Origin: Pseudonocardia broussonetiae
GTDB lineage: Bacteria; Actinomycetota; Actinomycetes; Mycobacteriales; Pseudonocardiaceae
Direction of reading: 5' to 3'
DNA: 64,000 nt
Assembly: GCF_013155125.1 (NCBI RefSeq)
Contig: NZ_CP053564.1
Location: 1,681,501-1,745,500 of the forward strand
Position 1 is the stretch's first letter. Each line of letters opens with the position of its first letter. Position numbers and translations under genes: made by a program. This document shows, piece after piece, positions 44 to 44,596 of the stretch. The notes under the pieces are model-generated. The model searched no databases. It saw nothing but the letters and a program-made list of their open reading frames with translations, and was not told the DNA's origin.

Positions 44-90
44 GGCGCACTCCCGACGATCATCAAGGGTGGAGTCGGAGCTGGGGCGGC

Positions 91-1746
91 TCACTGCGCC
101 TGCTTCACCGCCAGCTCCGCGACGGCCTGGCGGGCGGCCGCGGGGTCCACGGCGGCGCAGGCGGCCTCCGCACGCTCACGGCAGTCCTCCAGGCTCGCGC
201 CGGCGATCGAGGCCCCGACGGCGGCCAGGGCGCCGGCGCCCATCGACAGCGTCGCCATCCCGAGCCCGACCAGGACCGGGGCCAGGGCGGGGTCGGCGGC
301 GGCCTCGCCGCACACCCCGACCGGCGTGCCGGTGGTGGCCGAGGCCTCGCCGAGCAGGCGGAGCAGGCGCAGGAGGGCGGGCTGCCACGGGTCGTTGAGG
401 GCGGCGACCGGGCCGGACTGGCGGTCGGCCGCGAACAGGTACTGGGCCAGGTCGTTGGTGCCGACGCTGGCGAAGTCGACCTCGGCGAGCACCTCGTGGG
501 CGGTCAGCACGGCGGCCGGGACCTCGATCATCACGCCGGCCGAGCGGATGCCGTGCTCCCGGCACCGCGCGACGAACCAGCGGGCCTCCTCGGCCGTCGC
601 GACCATCGGCGCCATCACCTTGAGCTCGGCGCCGGTCTCGGTGGCCGCAGCGGCGAGGGTCGCGAGCTGGCGGTCGAGCACGTCGGAGCCCGGGCCGGGC
701 ACGCGCGCCACGCGCAGCCCGCGCACGCCCAGCGCCGGGTTCGGCTCGCCGTCGAGCGTCAGGAACGGCAGGGGCTTGTCGGCGCCCGCGTCGAGGGTGC
801 GCGCGGTGACCGGGAGCCCGGCGAACGCGGCCAGCACCCCCGCGTAGACCTCGTGCTGTCGGGCGACCGAGGGCTCCTCGGCGGCGGAGAGGAACGCGAG
901 CTCGGTGCGGAACAGCCCGACGCCCTGCGCGCGCAGCCCGGCCGCCGTCACCGCACCCTTCGCCTCGCCGACGTTGGCCAGCAGCGGCACCACGTGGCCG
1001 TCGGAGGTCCGGCCGACGCCGTCCCACTCGGCCGCGACCACGGTCCCGTTCTCCTGCTCGACGACGTCGGCCACCTCCTGCACCACGCCCGTCGCCCCGT
1101 CGACGACGACCGCGGTGCCCTCGGCGATCGAGGTGGCGCCGGCGCAGCCGACGACCGCGGGGATGCCGAGCGAGCGGGCCAGGATCGCGGTGTGGCTGGT
1201 GGGGCCGCCCTGCTCGGTGACCAGCGCCAGCGCGATGCCGGGGCGCAGGCCCGCGGTGTCGGCGGGGGCGAGGTCGGCGGCGACGAGGACGCACGGGGCG
1301 TCGAGGTCGGCGACGCCCGGGGCGGGCAGGCCGAGCAGCTCGGCGACGATCCGGTCGCGCACGTCGTGGATGTCGCGGGCGCGCTCGGCCATGTACCCGC
1401 CCATGCCGGTGAGCAGGTCGGCGAACGCGCCGGCCGCCTCGTACACGGCGCGGGCGGCGGGGCGCCCGCCGCCGGTGACCAGGTCGCGGGCGTTGTCGAG
1501 CAGCGCCGGGTCGGTGACCATCGCGACGGTCGCCTCCAGCACGTCCTTCGCGTCGCCCGACACCGTGGCCGCGCGGGCCTCCAGGCGGGCGGCGACGACG
1601 GCGACGGCCGGGGCGATGCGCGCGGCCTCCCCCGCCGGGTCGAGGGGTGCGGGGCCCACCGGGGGCTCGCCGGGTGCGTCGGCGACCCGGACCACCCGTC
1701 CGCTCGCACGCCCGCTGCTAGCCGGGATCCCGCTCAGTGTCCGCAT
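91..1746 (-). CDS. ptsI: PTS enzyme I (phosphoenolpyruvate-protein phosphotransferase)
   Basis: Cytoplasmic enzyme I takes phosphate from phosphoenolpyruvate and passes it to HPr, the first step of every PTS sugar uptake chain. The 551-residue product has the family's usual length. The phosphohistidine motif GGPTSHTAIL places the active histidine at about residue 185. The C-terminal PEP-binding barrel contains the LFRTELAFL and GTNDLAQYLFAADR motifs. I chose the ATG at 1746 because GGGAG lies just upstream and the protein then begins MRTLSGIPAS, as expected; a longer reading to 1818 adds 24 residues foreign to the family. The gene is divergent from the fructose operon and its partner HPr lies at that operon's far end. 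Confidence 0.96.
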   Translation of the reverse strand: MRTLSGIPASSGRASGRVVRVADAPGEPPVGPAPLDPAGEAARIAPAVAVVAARLEARAATVSGDAKDVLEATVAMVTDPALLDNARDLVTGGGRPAARAVYEAAGAFADLLTGMGGYMAERARDIHDVRDRIVAELLGLPAPGVADLDAPCVLVAADLAPADTAGLRPGIALALVTEQGGPTSHTAILARSLGIPAVVGCAGATSIAEGTAVVVDGATGVVQEVADVVEQENGTVVAAEWDGVGRTSDGHVVPLLANVGEAKGAVTAAGLRAQGVGLFRTELAFLSAAEEPSVARQHEVYAGVLAAFAGLPVTARTLDAGADKPLPFLTLDGEPNPALGVRGLRVARVPGPGSDVLDRQLATLAAAATETGAELKVMAPMVATAEEARWFVARCREHGIRSAGVMIEVPAAVLTAHEVLAEVDFASVGTNDLAQYLFAADRQSGPVAALNDPWQPALLRLLRLLGEASATTGTPVGVCGEAAADPALAPVLVGLGMATLSMGAGALAAVGASIAGASLEDCRERAEAACAAVDPAAARQAVAELAVKQAQ

Positions 1747-5775: not shown

Positions 5776-5827
5776 ACGCCGGACGGCGCGGTGACCACCC
5801 CTCGTGGGTCACCGCGCCGTCCGGCGT
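5776..5827. terminator. Bidirectional terminator between ptsH and the DoxX gene
   Basis: A perfect 21-bp inverted repeat (5776-5796 paired with 5807-5827) with a 10-base loop fills the gap between two convergent genes. It lacks a long T-tract, as is common in high-GC actinobacteria. Its position and symmetry suggest it ends transcripts arriving from both sides. Confidence 0.8.
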
Positions 5828-8340: not shown

Positions 8341-9182
8341 ACGTCGACCTGAACTCCGACCTCGGCGAGTCGTTCGGCCGCTGGACCCTCGGCGACGACG
8401 ACGCGATGCTCGAGCTGGTCACCTCGGCCAACGTGGCCTGCGGGTTCCACGCGGGCGACCCGTCGACGCTGCGACGGACGTGCGCGCGGGCCGCGGCGGG
8501 CGGCGTCGTCGTGGGGGCGCAGGTGGGGTACCGCGACCTGGCCGGGTTCGGCCGCCGGTTCGTCGACATGGACCCGGGCGAGCTCGCCGACGACGTGCTC
8601 TACCAGCTCGGCGCGCTGGAGGCGATGTGCCGGGTGGCGGGCACGACGGTGCGCTACGTCAAGCCGCACGGGGCGCTCTACAACGCGACGGTGCACCACG
8701 CCGTGCAGGCGCGGGCCGTGCTCGACGCCGTGCGCGACTACGACCCCGCGCTGCCGGTGATGGGACTGCCCGGGTCCGAGCTCCTGGCCGCCGCCGAGGC
8801 CGCGGGGCTGCGTGCGGTGCCGGAGTTCTTCGTCGACCGCGGCTACACCCCGGCCGGCGCGCTGGTGCCCCGCTCCGAGCCCGGTGCGTTGCTGCACGAC
8901 CCGGACGAGGTGGCCGCGCGCGTGCTGCGGCTGCTCACCGACGGCACGGTCGAGGCCGTCGACGGGACGGTGGTGGCGGTGCGGGCGGAGTCGGCGTGCG
9001 TGCACGGGGACTCGCCGGGGGCGGTGGAGATGGCCCGCGCGGTGCGGGCGGCGCTGGCCGGCGCCGGGGTGGAGGTGCGGGCGTTCGTGGGGGCTCCGGA
9101 CTTGCAGGAAGGCCACCTTGCTGACGCTTCCGCACAGCAAGGTGGCCTTCCTGCAACGGGGGCGGGAGGTGGCGGCGCGTGA
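8337..9182 (+). CDS. pxpA: 5-oxoprolinase subunit A (LamB/YcsF family)
   Basis: PxpA is one of three subunits of the prokaryotic ATP-dependent 5-oxoprolinase, which opens 5-oxoproline (pyroglutamate) to glutamate. The start [13 protein letters not shown] and the motifs [14 protein letters not shown] and [12 protein letters not shown] identify the family. The GTG start overlaps the stop of the carrier gene. At 281 residues it is about 30 longer than usual: the normal end is near residue 255 ([10 protein letters not shown]), after which the frame runs through a 55-bp palindromic element and a GGGG-rich tail. The last four bases overlap the next gene. Confidence 0.92.
9102..9156. repeat. Perfect 21-bp inverted repeat element inside the 3' end of pxpA
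   Basis: Positions 9102-9122 are the exact reverse complement of 9136-9156, with a 13-base loop. The element starts where pxpA homology should end and stops 22 bases before the pxpBC start, just ahead of the GGGAGG ribosome site at 9163-9168. It is read in frame as about 18 extra residues of PxpA. It looks like a small mobile or interspersed palindrome, or an intra-operon attenuator; only a genome search can decide. Confidence 0.8.
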
Positions 9183-41660: not shown

Positions 41661-42047
41661 TCAGGCCCAGACGCCCGTCACGCCGGCGACGACCAGCAGC
41701 TTGAGCAGCCAGTCACCGGAGTGGATCGCGGCGAGGGCGACGGGCACCCGCTCGTGGAACACCGACCCGGTGAGCAGCAGGACCGGGAACCCCACCCACA
41801 GCACGAGGGCGAGCAGCAGCGCCGGACCGAGCGCGTCGGCGCCCAGCCCGCGCGCCAGCCCGGCCACGACGAGCGCCAGCACGACGTTGCGGACGACCTC
41901 GGTGACCGCCGTGAGCGCGGCGGGGCGCCCCGCGCCCGGGGCGTAGGCGGGCGAGAGCTGCGCCAGGCGGGCGCCGAGCGCGCCGTAGTACGCCCCGCTG
42001 ACGACGAACGCGGCCACCGCGGCCACGACGACGGCGAGGACGTTCAC
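41661..42047 (-). CDS. DUF1761-family membrane protein
   Basis: This 128-residue membrane protein has four hydrophobic segments and the DUF1761 features [22 protein letters not shown] and [19 protein letters not shown] at its end. Function is unknown. Its GTG start overlaps the stop of the DUF1905 gene (GTGA), so both are translated together from the divergent palindromic promoter at 42353-42396. Confidence 0.8.
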
Positions 42048-42325
42048 CGGCTCTCCTCGATCCGCTCCGACAGGTGCACGTCGACGGAGTCGCCGGCCTT
42101 CTTGCCCAGCGTCCGGCACAGGGCGGCGCGCACCGGCAGCTTGTGGGTGCCGTCGCCCAGCGCCATGAACGAGCTGCGGAACGGGTGGCCGTCGACGGTG
42201 CCGCGGACCTTCACCAGCCCGCGGGTGCCGAAGAACTCGGCGGAGCCGGGCATCTTCACGTAGGTCCAGCCGCCCGGTGCCGGGCTCGTCACCAGGACGG
42301 CGGTGAAGTCGTGGTCGAGTTCCAT
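42044..42325 (-). CDS. DUF1905-domain protein
   Basis: This 93-residue protein is a stand-alone DUF1905 domain, recognisable by [37 protein letters not shown] and [12 protein letters not shown]. The fold is a small beta barrel and no activity is established. It is the first gene after the palindromic intergenic element and lies opposite the DGPF/ECF42 pair, which suggests shared control by that sigma factor. GGAGGATC-type sequence lies close upstream of its ATG. Confidence 0.83.
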
Positions 42326-42352
42326 CGGAGGATCCTTCCCTCGGGGTCCGTA

Positions 42353-42396
42353 CGCCGGGATGTCGAGACCGGGCCGGCGGTCTCGACATCCCGGCG
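42353..42396. promoter_or_regulatory. Mirror-image ECF42-type promoter in a perfect palindrome
   Basis: A perfect 19-bp inverted repeat (42353-42371 with 42378-42396) surrounds GGCCGG. On the plus strand TGTCGA (42361-42366) is followed after 17 bases by CGAC (42384-42387). By symmetry the minus strand has TGTCGA (42388-42383), 17 bases, then CGAC (42365-42362). TGTCGA and CGA(C/T) are, as I recall, the -35 and -10 elements of ECF42-group sigma factors, one of which is encoded just downstream. The distances from -10 to the start codons are similar on both sides (about 37-40 bases). Confidence 0.78.
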
Positions 42397-42426
42397 GCAG
42401 GAGTTTCCCGGTGACGGAGGTGGCAC

Positions 42427-42798
42427 GTGAAGTACCTGGTCCTCATCCACAGCAACGAGCACTTCCTCGAGCGCTGGGCGGGCCTGACCGACGCCCAGCG
42501 CGCCGAGTTCGGCCGCGGGCACCGCGCGCTGACCGACGAGCTCGCCGCGTCGGGCGAGCTGGTGGCGTCGGAGGGGCTGGCCGACCCGTCGCTCGGGCGG
42601 TGGGTCACGGCGCGCGACGGCGCCGCGGTCGTCGCGGACGGGCCGTTCGCCGAGGTCAAGGAGCACCTGGCGGGGTTCTACCTCGTCGAGTGCGAGACAG
42701 CGGACCGCGCGGTCGAGATCGCCGCGCGCGTCCCGGACGCGGTGTGGGGCCTGGTCGAGGTGCGGCCGGTGCTCAGCCCCGCGGGCCCGGACCTGTGA
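42427..42798 (+). CDS. DGPF/YCII-domain protein, ECF42 partner
   Basis: This 123-residue protein has the YCII fold and the diagnostic [21 protein letters not shown] segment (DGPF motif, residues 70-90). Genes of this type nearly always accompany ECF42 sigma factors and are their main known targets; their biochemical role is not settled. It is coupled to the sigma gene by a GTGA overlap, and GGAGG lies 9 bases before its GTG start. The palindromic promoter lies 31 bases upstream. Confidence 0.9.
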
Positions 42799-43991
42799 CG
42801 GGGAGCGTCGAGGACCTGCTGCGCGAGCTCGCGCCGCAGGTCCTCGGCGTGCTCGTGCGCCGCCGGGGCGGTGACTTCGCCGCCTGCGAGGACGCCGTGC
42901 AGGAGGCCCTGATCGCGGCGGCGCTCGCCTGGCCGGCCGACGGCGTCCCGGACAACCCGGCGGGCTGGCTCATCACCGCGGCCCACCGCCGCACCGTCGA
43001 CGCCCACCGCGCCGACGCGGCGCGCCGCCGCCGGGAGGACGCGGTGGCCGCGGCCGTGCCGCCGGGCCCGGTGCCCGGCGAGGACGACACGCTCGCCCTG
43101 CTCGCGCTGTGCTGCCACCCGTCGCTGAACCCGCCGTCGCAGGTGGCCCTGACGCTGCGCGCGGTCGGCGGCCTGACCACCGCGGAGATCGCCCGCGGCC
43201 TGCTCGTGCCGGAGGCGACCGTCGCGCAGCGGATCAGCCGGGCCAAGGCGCGGATCCGGGCCGCGGGCGGGCGGTTCGGCGACCCGGACGACGAGGCGCG
43301 GCTCCCCGCGGTCCTCCGGACGCTGTACCTGGTGTTCACCGAGGGGCACACGGCCAGCTCGGGTGAGTCCCTGCAGCGCGTCGAGCTGACCCGGGAGGCG
43401 CTGCGGCTGACCCGCCTGCTGCACGGGCTGCGGCCCGGCGACGGCGAGGTCGCCGGCCTGCTCGCGCTGATGCTGCTCACCGACGCGCGCCGGGCCGCCC
43501 GGACCGCGCCCGACGGCGCGCTGGTGCCGCTGGACGAGCAGGACCGCGGGCTCTGGGACGCCGCCGCGATCGCCGAGGGCGTCGCGCTGGTCACCGCGGC
43601 GCTGGCCACGGCGGTGCCCGGGCCCTACCAGCTGCAGGCCGCGATCGCCGCCGTGCACGCCGAGGCCCCGCGAGCCGAGGACACCGACTGGCGCCAGATC
43701 CTGGGCCTCTACGAGATCCTGGCGGCGATCGCGCCGGGCCCGATGGTCACGCTCAACCGGATCGTCGCCGTCGCCATGGTGCGCGGGCCGCTCGTCGCCC
43801 TGGAGCAGCTCGACGCTGCCGCGGGCGACCCGGCGCTGGCCGGGCACCACCGCGTCGACGCCGTGCGCGCGCACCTGCTCGACCGCACCGGCGACGCCGA
43901 CGGGGCGCGCGAGCACTACCGCCGCGCGGCCGCCCGCACCCTGAGCGCGCCCGAGCGCCGCTACCTGCTCGACCGAGCCGCCGGACGATGA
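42795..43991 (+). CDS. ECF42-group RNA polymerase sigma factor
   Basis: This 398-residue sigma factor is twice the length of simple ECF sigmas. Sigma region 2 lies near residues 15-80 (CEDAVQEALIAAALAWPADG, PAGWLITAAHRRTVDAHR) and region 4 near 105-160 (ALTLRAVGGLTTAEIARGLLVPEATVAQRI). A C-terminal helical, TPR-like domain of about 230 residues follows (TLYLVFTEGHTASSGE, LLALMLLTDARRAAR, ILGLYEILAAIAPGPMVTLNRIVAVA). This architecture and the DGPF neighbour define ECF42. Control seems to rest in the C-terminal domain, as no anti-sigma gene is present. Confidence 0.93.
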   Translation: MTGSVEDLLRELAPQVLGVLVRRRGGDFAACEDAVQEALIAAALAWPADGVPDNPAGWLITAAHRRTVDAHRADAARRRREDAVAAAVPPGPVPGEDDTLALLALCCHPSLNPPSQVALTLRAVGGLTTAEIARGLLVPEATVAQRISRAKARIRAAGGRFGDPDDEARLPAVLRTLYLVFTEGHTASSGESLQRVELTREALRLTRLLHGLRPGDGEVAGLLALMLLTDARRAARTAPDGALVPLDEQDRGLWDAAAIAEGVALVTAALATAVPGPYQLQAAIAAVHAEAPRAEDTDWRQILGLYEILAAIAPGPMVTLNRIVAVAMVRGPLVALEQLDAAAGDPALAGHHRVDAVRAHLLDRTGDADGAREHYRRAAARTLSAPERRYLLDRAAGR

Positions 43992-44038: not shown

Positions 44039-44596
44039 ATGGCACAGCTCCTCTACTCGATGATCGTCTCGCTCGACGGCTACGCCGTGGCGGCCGAGGG
44101 CGACCTCGGCCGCGGCGCCGAGGACCCCGAGGTCCACACGTTCATCGGCGACCTCTTCCGCCCCGTCGGCACGTACCTCTACGGCCGGCGCATGTACGAG
44201 ACGATGGTCTTCTGGGAGACCGCGCACACCGCGCCCGACGCGCCCCCGCACATCGTCGGGTACGCCCGCGACTGGCAGGCCGTCGACAAGGTCGTCTACT
44301 CCACGACGCTGGGGTCGGTGTCCAGCGCGCGGACCCGGATCGAGCGGACCTTCGACCCCGACGCGGTGCGCCGGCTCAAGGAGGGGGCCGACCGCGACCT
44401 CACTGTCGACGGCCCGCACCTCGCCGCCCAGGCGATCGCGGCGGGCCTGGTGGACGAGTACCACCTGTTCGTCACCACGAGCGCGGTCGGGGGCGGCACG
44501 CGGTTCTTCCCCGACGGCGTGCGCCTCGACCTCGACCTGGTCGACCAGCGCCGCTTCGACAGCGGGCTGCTCTACGCGCGCTACCGGCCGCGCTGA
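44039..44596 (+). CDS. Dihydrofolate reductase-like (RibD C-terminal domain) protein
   Basis: This 185-residue protein has the RibD C-terminal/DHFR fold: MAQLLYSMIVSLDGYAVAAEG at the start, TYLYGRRMYETMVFWE in the middle and GPHLAAQAIAAGLVDEYHLFVTT plus VGGGTRFFP toward the end. Such stand-alone proteins are common in actinobacteria and are presumed NADPH-dependent reductases of unknown substrate. It follows the ECF42 gene by 47 bases and could belong to the same transcript. Confidence 0.85.
   Translation: MAQLLYSMIVSLDGYAVAAEGDLGRGAEDPEVHTFIGDLFRPVGTYLYGRRMYETMVFWETAHTAPDAPPHIVGYARDWQAVDKVVYSTTLGSVSSARTRIERTFDPDAVRRLKEGADRDLTVDGPHLAAQAIAAGLVDEYHLFVTTSAVGGGTRFFPDGVRLDLDLVDQRRFDSGLLYARYRPR

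Follow-up and report, generated by a model that had tools for sequence, protein, structure and literature searches.

A mirror-symmetric element between two divergent gene pairs of Pseudonocardia broussonetiae is probably a shared ECF42 promoter used in both directions

The window, by which we mean the whole stretch of 64,000 nucleotides from Pseudonocardia broussonetiae that was analyzed (contig NZ_CP053564.1, positions 1,681,501 to 1,745,500), contains two pairs of genes that diverge from a short intergenic region in which there is a palindrome. The features assigned at this locus, with the basis of each assignment, are the following:

41661 to 42047, minus strand: DUF1761 protein of 128 aa (PF08570), whose start overlaps the DUF1905 stop (Pfam)
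42044 to 42325, minus strand: DUF1905 protein of 93 aa (PF08922) (Pfam)
42353 to 42396, no strand: mirror-symmetric element, a perfect 19-bp inverted repeat with a 6-nt centre (inverted-repeat search and sequence)
42361 to 42387, plus strand: ECF42-type promoter TGTCGA-N17-CGAC, predicted to serve DGPF-ECF42 (motif match; at least 8/10 in 83 of 104 DGPF upstream regions)
42362 to 42388, minus strand: ECF42-type promoter TGTCGA-N17-CGAC, predicted to serve DUF1905-DUF1761 (locus L286, 10/10, 36 nt before the start)
42427 to 42798, plus strand: DGPF/YCII protein of 123 aa (PF03795), whose stop overlaps the sigma start (Pfam)
42795 to 43991, plus strand: ECF42-type sigma factor of 398 aa with sigma r2, sigma r4 and a DUF6596 extension (Pfam)
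44039 to 44596, plus strand: RibD_C (reductase-like) gene 3' of the sigma gene, a possible further member (Pfam)

The start of the sigma gene at 42795 and that of the DUF1761 gene were chosen by us within longer open frames. With these starts, the stop and start overlap by 4 bp both in DGPF-sigma and in DUF1905-DUF1761, so each pair is probably a single operon. The sigma factor matched Sigma70_r2, Sigma70_r4_2 and DUF6596 above the Pfam cut-offs, and no NCBIfam model reached its cut-off; we take DUF6596 to be the marker of ECF42. As in ECF42 systems, a YCII/DGPF gene (PF03795) adjoins the sigma gene, and a TGTCGA-type -35 with a CGA/TC-type -10 is present 5' of the DGPF gene. The known systems that combine ECF42 with DGPF/YCII include Sven_0747, Sven_4377 and Sven_7131 of S. 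venezuelae, ECF-10 of P. putida and RpoE10 of S. meliloti. The locus has in common with ECF42 systems a sigma factor with a long C-terminal extension encoded 3' of a YCII/DGPF gene, and promoters with a -35 of TGTCGA or TGTCGG, a -10 of CGAC or CGTC and a 17-nt spacer. It is unlike the known ones in that its promoter is mirror-symmetric and shared with the divergent DUF1905-DUF1761 pair. The portion of PMC8999054 on which we draw describes the C-terminal extension of ECF42 as TPR-rich; the extension of the sigma factor studied here matched DUF6596, and no TPR model was matched at E <= 0.001. Another genome of the genus (G309) encodes a sigma factor that is 98% identical, and the palindrome at its locus is the same as that of P. 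oceani. The genome of P. broussonetiae contains seven DUF6596 genes, and the elements at three of the ECF42 paralogues (L255, L275 and L284) are TGTCCG with CGAC, TGTCGAGAAC with CCGTC and TGTCGATTCC with CGTC, respectively, differences which suggest insulated specificities.

An earlier note on this DNA, made from the letters alone, had described the palindrome as a perfect 19-bp inverted repeat that carries TGTCGA-N17-CGAC on each strand and lies at similar distances from two divergent starts, and both parts of the description were confirmed. The arms (42353 to 42371 and 42378 to 42396) are 19 nt each and 100% complementary. On the plus strand TGTCGA (42361 to 42366) is followed by 17 nt and CGAC (42384 to 42387), with 39 nt from there to the GTG start of the DGPF gene at 42427; on the minus strand TGTCGA (42388 to 42383) is followed by 17 nt and CGAC (42365 to 42362), with 36 nt to the ATG start of the DUF1905 gene at 42325. 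The minus-strand element is retained in P. oceani (L107) and in the genome G237 (L048 and L287).

The window contains two longer inverted repeats that are also perfect, one of 22 nt at 9102 to 9156 and one of 21 nt at 5776 to 5827 (among the 25 listed of 49 pairs), and the length of the palindrome alone therefore proves little. The motif inside the palindrome, unlike its length, exceeds chance. The pattern TGTCGAR-N15-YCGAC has three sites in the 7.29-Mb genome, two of which are the two strands of the palindrome, and the third (L387) is within open reading frames. A first count of the motif in the genome with spacers of 16 to 18 (154 forward and 130 reverse, control 32 and 32) was dropped as uninformative, the sites listed having mostly spacers of 16 and 18, and a fixed-spacer search was used instead. 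With up to two mismatches, the palindrome had one site in its own genome and was found in 51 of 297 genomes of the family, compared with 2 of 297 for a reversed-pattern control. Thirty loci were listed for this search: 16 with DGPF-ECF42, one (L034) with DUF1905 alone and 13 with neither. Six of these 13 represent one conserved and unexplained element of genus g38 (L023 to L028, position 1502), a near-palindrome, TGTCGAGAGCAGCCGCCGCGTCTCAACA, in six genomes for which there was no DGPF or ECF42 hit in the stretch examined. When exact palindromes with spacers of 3 to 22 were scanned in the same 297 genomes, 18 of 32 had a spacer of 12 (reversed-pattern control, 2/297 genomes), and all 18 adjoin a DGPF-ECF42 pair.

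Matches were also numerous in a scan of GTDB, which recovered at least 120 stretches with the palindrome, and among the 120 listed a tblastn hit to DGPF was near the palindrome in 14, with many of the others being REP-like repeats. Among the matches listed (L076 to L195), the REP-like repeats occur several per genome in some cases and most have no adjoining ECF42; those of, for example, L092, L094, L106, L114 and L136 extend the core to TCGAGC(T/C)TGTCGAGA...TCTCGACA(A/G)GCTCGA. The same 28-mer pattern is thus the core of repeats in Cryobacterium, Krasilnikoviella, Promicromonospora, Propionicimonas and Sphingomonas, which, together with the other perfect hairpins of the window, is what would be expected if the palindrome were a repetitive element, or a hairpin or terminator, with no promoter function. 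We regard that explanation as very improbable, given that the palindrome has a single match in its own genome and flanks that differ from those of the REP-like repeats, that it is located between gene starts rather than ends, and that no terminator-like site (a stem plus a T run) was found in a scan of 42250 to 42500.

To determine how often the plus-strand element accompanies DGPF genes, 114 DGPF hits were reduced to 104 distinct upstream regions by the removal of identical or short ones; hits with no start codon, or with a profile match starting beyond position 6, were dropped. Of the 104 regions, 79 had been found via the sigma factor alone and 25 via the palindrome. Each was scored over 10 positions (TGTCGA plus CGAC or CGTC) at a fixed 17-nt spacer. 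A score of 10/10 was obtained for 44 of the 104 regions and at least 8/10 for 83, and the sigma-found regions by themselves gave 25 of 79 and 58 of 79, respectively. In 40 of the 44 perfect cases the element ends 37 to 55 nt before the DGPF start. The ECF42 consensus, according to Liu et al. in 2018, reportedly comprises a TGTCGA-type -35 and a CGA/TC-type -10. On these counts the plus-strand element is the usual promoter of DGPF-ECF42 operons, in line with the statement in the earlier note that ECF42 sigma factors recognize elements of this type and control DGPF genes. In S. meliloti, TGTCGG-N17-CGTC is present at both SMb20475 and SMc01149, targets of the ECF42 sigma factor RpoE10, and two methods placed the transcription start of SMc01149 at the ninth base beyond CGTC (PMC6180224, Table 1 with its footnote). 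By analogy with SMc01149, transcription at our locus would start near 42396 on the plus strand and near 42353 on the minus strand, the outer ends of the palindrome.

The minus-strand match requires more caution because the GTCG within the -35 TGTCGA reads as CGAC, the -10 sequence, on the opposite strand, and any 10/10 element of the CGAC type therefore already scores 8/10 on the other strand. Only two flanking positions, and the bases beyond them, separate a mirrored promoter from a one-way promoter. It could thus be argued that only the DGPF-sigma direction is a promoter, that the reverse match is a by-product of this complementarity and that DUF1905-DUF1761 is driven otherwise. We consider this unlikely, in part because full symmetry is seen at loci with a divergent start at promoter distance. 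Among the 83 regions scoring at least 8/10, 27 are 10/10 on the reverse strand as well, and a divergent gene lies within 250 nt in all 27 of these fully symmetric loci versus 23 of the 56 others. In 24 of the 27 the divergent start is 29 to 53 nt from the element. The exceptions, all of which were counted, are L019 and L022, where it is 7 nt away and perhaps a wrongly chosen start, and L168, where a gene of the GCS2 family starts 104 nt away for reasons that are unexplained.

Since most of the symmetric loci had been collected via the palindrome search, the comparison was rerun on the 58 sigma-found loci with a forward score of at least 8 (L107 standing for the identical L047). A score of 10/10 also prescribes the hexamers by definition. 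A divergent gene was present within 60 nt in 5 of 5 symmetric loci versus 5 of 53 others (Fisher p 5.5e-5), and within 250 nt in 5 of 5 versus 20 of 53 (p 0.012), p-values that overstate independence, given that the sequences are related and the five symmetric loci represent about two lineages. The five close divergent genes that have no mirrored promoter in this subset, located 27 to 46 nt from the element, indicate that closeness alone does not create symmetry. Four of them are tryptophanyl-type tRNA synthetase genes (Pfam class I W/Y, one having been scanned) and one resembles, by eye, the GFO/IDH gene of the window; their lack of symmetry is as expected for non-targets, but their closeness is compatible with a one-way element. 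One-way and symmetric promoters also differ in sequence, with the usual one-way DGPF promoter being TGTCGAG-N-GGCTCCGACC and the symmetric promoters GGTCTCGACA, although in GGTCTCGACA only GGTC is independent of the choice of the symmetric set by its hexamers. In addition, a simple consensus scan of 42250 to 42500 revealed no sigma-70-like promoter that might drive the minus-strand genes.

Several loci were intermediate and were counted as partial symmetry. In L037 to L039 the opposite gene is SnoaL-like and the scores are 8 forward and 9 reverse. In L053, L062 and L075 the scores are 7/10 forward and 9/10 reverse, the -35 being perfect on the divergent strand and poor on that of DGPF, and these promoters possibly now mainly serve the divergent gene, which is either VOC-like or MFS; the designation VOC-like, for L053 and L062, was made by eye, and Pfam gave no match for L053. 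A different solution was apparent in four Pseudonocardia loci with a divergent RibD-like gene (L063, L228, L233 and L237), each of which has two separate back-to-back ECF42-type elements. Seven of these eight elements are 10/10 and one is 9/10, and the divergent element lies 34 to 37 nt before its gene. In the two-element loci, as at the palindrome, DGPF-ECF42 and the divergent gene each have an ECF42-type element, supplied by two one-way elements in the former and by one symmetric element in the latter. The gene starts are 159 to 177 bp apart in the RibD loci versus 72 to 131 bp in 26 of the 27 symmetric loci, and judged by its layout the shared element looks like a compact version of the open two-promoter arrangement.

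The proposal that the minus-strand genes belong to the ECF42 system was also assessed at sites away from the locus. For DUF1905, 71 of 92 places were examined (two hits with 45-46% identity, 18 weak matches and a further fragment in G155 were set aside). Twelve of the 71 genes have a 10/10 element 31 to 56 nt upstream, of which two are the window locus and its G237 orthologue. The other ten, from four genera, with six from one genus and two having identical elements, had no tblastn hit to the DGPF or sigma gene of the window in the stretch examined. No 10/10 element arose in 50 rounds of shuffling or in reversed regions, and scores of at least 9/10 were obtained for 21 of 71 genes versus 0.68 expected. 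For DUF1761, 24 of 29 loci were readable, the remaining five having no tblastn hit, and five of the 24 genes (one from Pseudonocardia and four from genus g15) have a 10/10 element 33 to 41 nt upstream and no hit to DUF1905, DGPF or sigma in the stretch examined. Four DUF1761 genes with DUF1905 alongside have no 10/10 element of their own, as expected in an operon, and in G259 the two genes are ~950 kb apart, each with its own element. Among control genes from L286 to L384, 0 of 127 scored 10/10 and 5 of 127 scored 9/10. A first control of 230 genes (ten at 10/10 and 22 at 9/10 or more) had included ECF42 and palindrome loci, with four SnoaL and three RibD genes among the ten.

That copies of DUF1905 and DUF1761 in trans carry the same type of promoter is a further argument against the minus-strand match being a by-product, although the ten 10/10 DUF1905 promoters with no ECF42 nearby are themselves 9/10 in reverse, one base from symmetry. 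The 10/10 promoter is absent from 59 of the 71 DUF1905 and 19 of the 24 DUF1761 genes, and membership of the regulon would therefore be lineage-specific. Thus, of the earlier suggestion that the minus-strand genes are new members of the ECF42 system, the part concerning this locus and some relatives is supported, with ECF42-type promoters here, in G237 and in P. oceani and on ten DUF1905 and five DUF1761 genes elsewhere, but it does not extend to most copies. With that limit, DUF1905-DUF1761 would be lineage-specific members of the ECF42 regulon. The search that the note had proposed, for TGTCGA-N17-CGAC in related genomes 5' of DGPF, DUF1905 and DUF1761 genes, located elements of this type at all three, and the shared use of one element in both directions, which it had put forward, is supported by the association of full symmetry with a divergent gene at promoter distance. 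The built-in near-symmetry, the SnoaL-like gene as the usual opposite gene and the loci with two separate promoters were not among its points. On the sequences compared, the case is stronger than the single locus suggested.

The note had also considered conservation of the motif in orthologous intergenic regions, and the motif proved to be kept in other genera, including Lentzea. Here genus g7 is taken to be Lentzea to the extent that its elements match those of named records, one of which is labelled Nocardia sp. NRRL S-836. Twenty-three of 24 sampled Lentzea genomes have the DGPF locus (G193 had no close DGPF match, the best being 42%), and all 23 loci keep TGTCGA and TCGACA at the ends of the element, a retention of the reverse hexamers that speaks against a one-way promoter. 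Across 21 Lentzea sites there were 26 mismatches to the 18 specified bases and none in the 12 hexamer positions, a sum that omits the second site of G213 and the non-DGPF site of G230. The DGPF-linked sites of G230 (L389) and G140 (L388) are 10/10 on both strands, and where the inner bases of G140 depart from the pattern they do so symmetrically on the two sides (AAGC/GCTT).

The gene opposite the symmetric element varies. At the 27 symmetric loci it is SnoaL-like in 23 (one blastp cluster, with Pfam SnoaL_3/DUF4440 in 4 of 4 members scanned), DUF1905 in three (P. broussonetiae, P. oceani and G237) and GCS2 in one. In a tree of 45 of the 104 sigma factors, restricted to those of which 300 residues or more lay in the stretch examined, the DUF1905-type loci nest in a clade in which the remaining symmetric loci have a SnoaL gene opposite; support for the deep branches of this tree is weak (73/65 at the first fork). 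Most simply, a SnoaL gene would have given way to DUF1905-DUF1761 while the mirrored promoter was retained.

A long and perfect two-fold symmetry, placed between divergent genes, is a usual mark of operators bound by dimers, and the palindrome might accordingly be an operator, possibly overlapping a promoter, for a dimeric repressor or activator of both transcription units. The arms would be in keeping with this, since the outer 8 bp of each reach past the hexamers and are unaccounted for by the needs of the -35 and -10. In G237 these outer positions are only partly kept (3 of 8 mirrored). We nevertheless consider an operator quite improbable, based on the exact match of the half-sites to the -35 and -10 of ECF42 at the ECF42 spacing and on the one-way relatives, which keep the spacing without the symmetry. 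Furthermore, those neighbours of symmetric elements that were identified are non-regulators except for the sigma factor.

Our preferred explanation, which we hold with considerable though not complete confidence, is that the palindrome is a single ECF42 promoter read on both strands. Within these 28 bp, the -35 of each direction (TGTCGA) includes GTCG, which on the opposite strand is the CGAC of the other direction's -10, so that the ECF42 holoenzyme would bind either way round, transcribing DGPF-sigma in one orientation and DUF1905-DUF1761 in the other. The acting sigma factor would most simply be the one encoded next to the element, an attribution among the seven DUF6596-type sigma factors that we infer. 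Since the two directions use the same bases for their -35 and -10, simultaneous initiation by two polymerases is not expected; initiation in the two directions would be mutually exclusive, with an importance that depends on promoter strength. In this regard, the consulted text of PMC12825309 reports that basal transcription from five tested bidirectional promoters of E. coli was too low for competition. Autoregulation by the ECF42 sigma factor is predicted by this arrangement and is likely here. It would not be general, because the first gene of the ECF42 operon of S. meliloti was not raised by overexpression of its own sigma factor, RpoE10 (PMC6180224, in the part used here).

What would be new here is a whole mirrored ECF42 promoter; ECF42 control and bidirectional promoters are already known. 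Sigma-70 bidirectional promoters were reportedly described by Warman et al. in 2021 (Nat Microbiol). As presented by Warman et al. in 2026 (NAR, PMC12825309), those promoters resemble our element in that DNA symmetry allows RNA polymerase to engage a single element in either of two orientations, but there it is the -10 element that is symmetric, and transcription begins inside it or on its flanks. In contrast, the whole promoter is mirrored here and the -35 of one strand is on the -10 of the other, so the predicted starts are ~43 bp apart, at opposite ends. No shared mirrored ECF42 element is described in the consulted portions of PMC8999054, PMC6180224, PMC8103513, PMC9205884 and PMC12825309. 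In our search of the open-access literature, neither a mirrored ECF promoter nor control of DUF1905 or DUF1761 by ECF42 came up, an absence that carries little weight.

If the shared promoter is real, it would extend bidirectional promoters from the -10 symmetry of sigma-70 to the whole promoter of an alternative sigma factor, with two promoters on the same base pairs, and it would link DUF1905 and DUF1761, both families of unknown function, to ECF42-type control in some lineages. The natural series of one-way, two separate and fully shared promoters would also allow tests of the evolution of promoter sharing and of whether such sharing ties the sigma factor's own synthesis to its targets. We further speculate, with the chances about even, that ECF42 promoters are pre-adapted to bidirectionality by having a -35 and a -10 that mirror each other as reverse complements about a fixed centre. 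The Pseudonocardiaceae would then maintain a stable slot, in which a perfectly mirrored promoter separates the DGPF-sigma operon from an accessory gene that can be exchanged (SnoaL-like, DUF1905-DUF1761, or perhaps VOC-like or MFS), with the mutually exclusive directions setting sigma synthesis versus accessory output.

Two further observations were made in individual genomes. At L049 (G325), a DUF1761 gene at 800 to 1140 that is without its first part abuts DGPF, the element is gone and there was no DUF1905 hit, which reflects either a deletion or an assembly join. In the Lentzea genome G230, outside the DGPF locus, a symmetric TGTCGA-N16-TCGACA at 848 of L405 lies 5' of a DUF899 gene (66 to 821, minus strand), making that gene a possible further ECF42 target.
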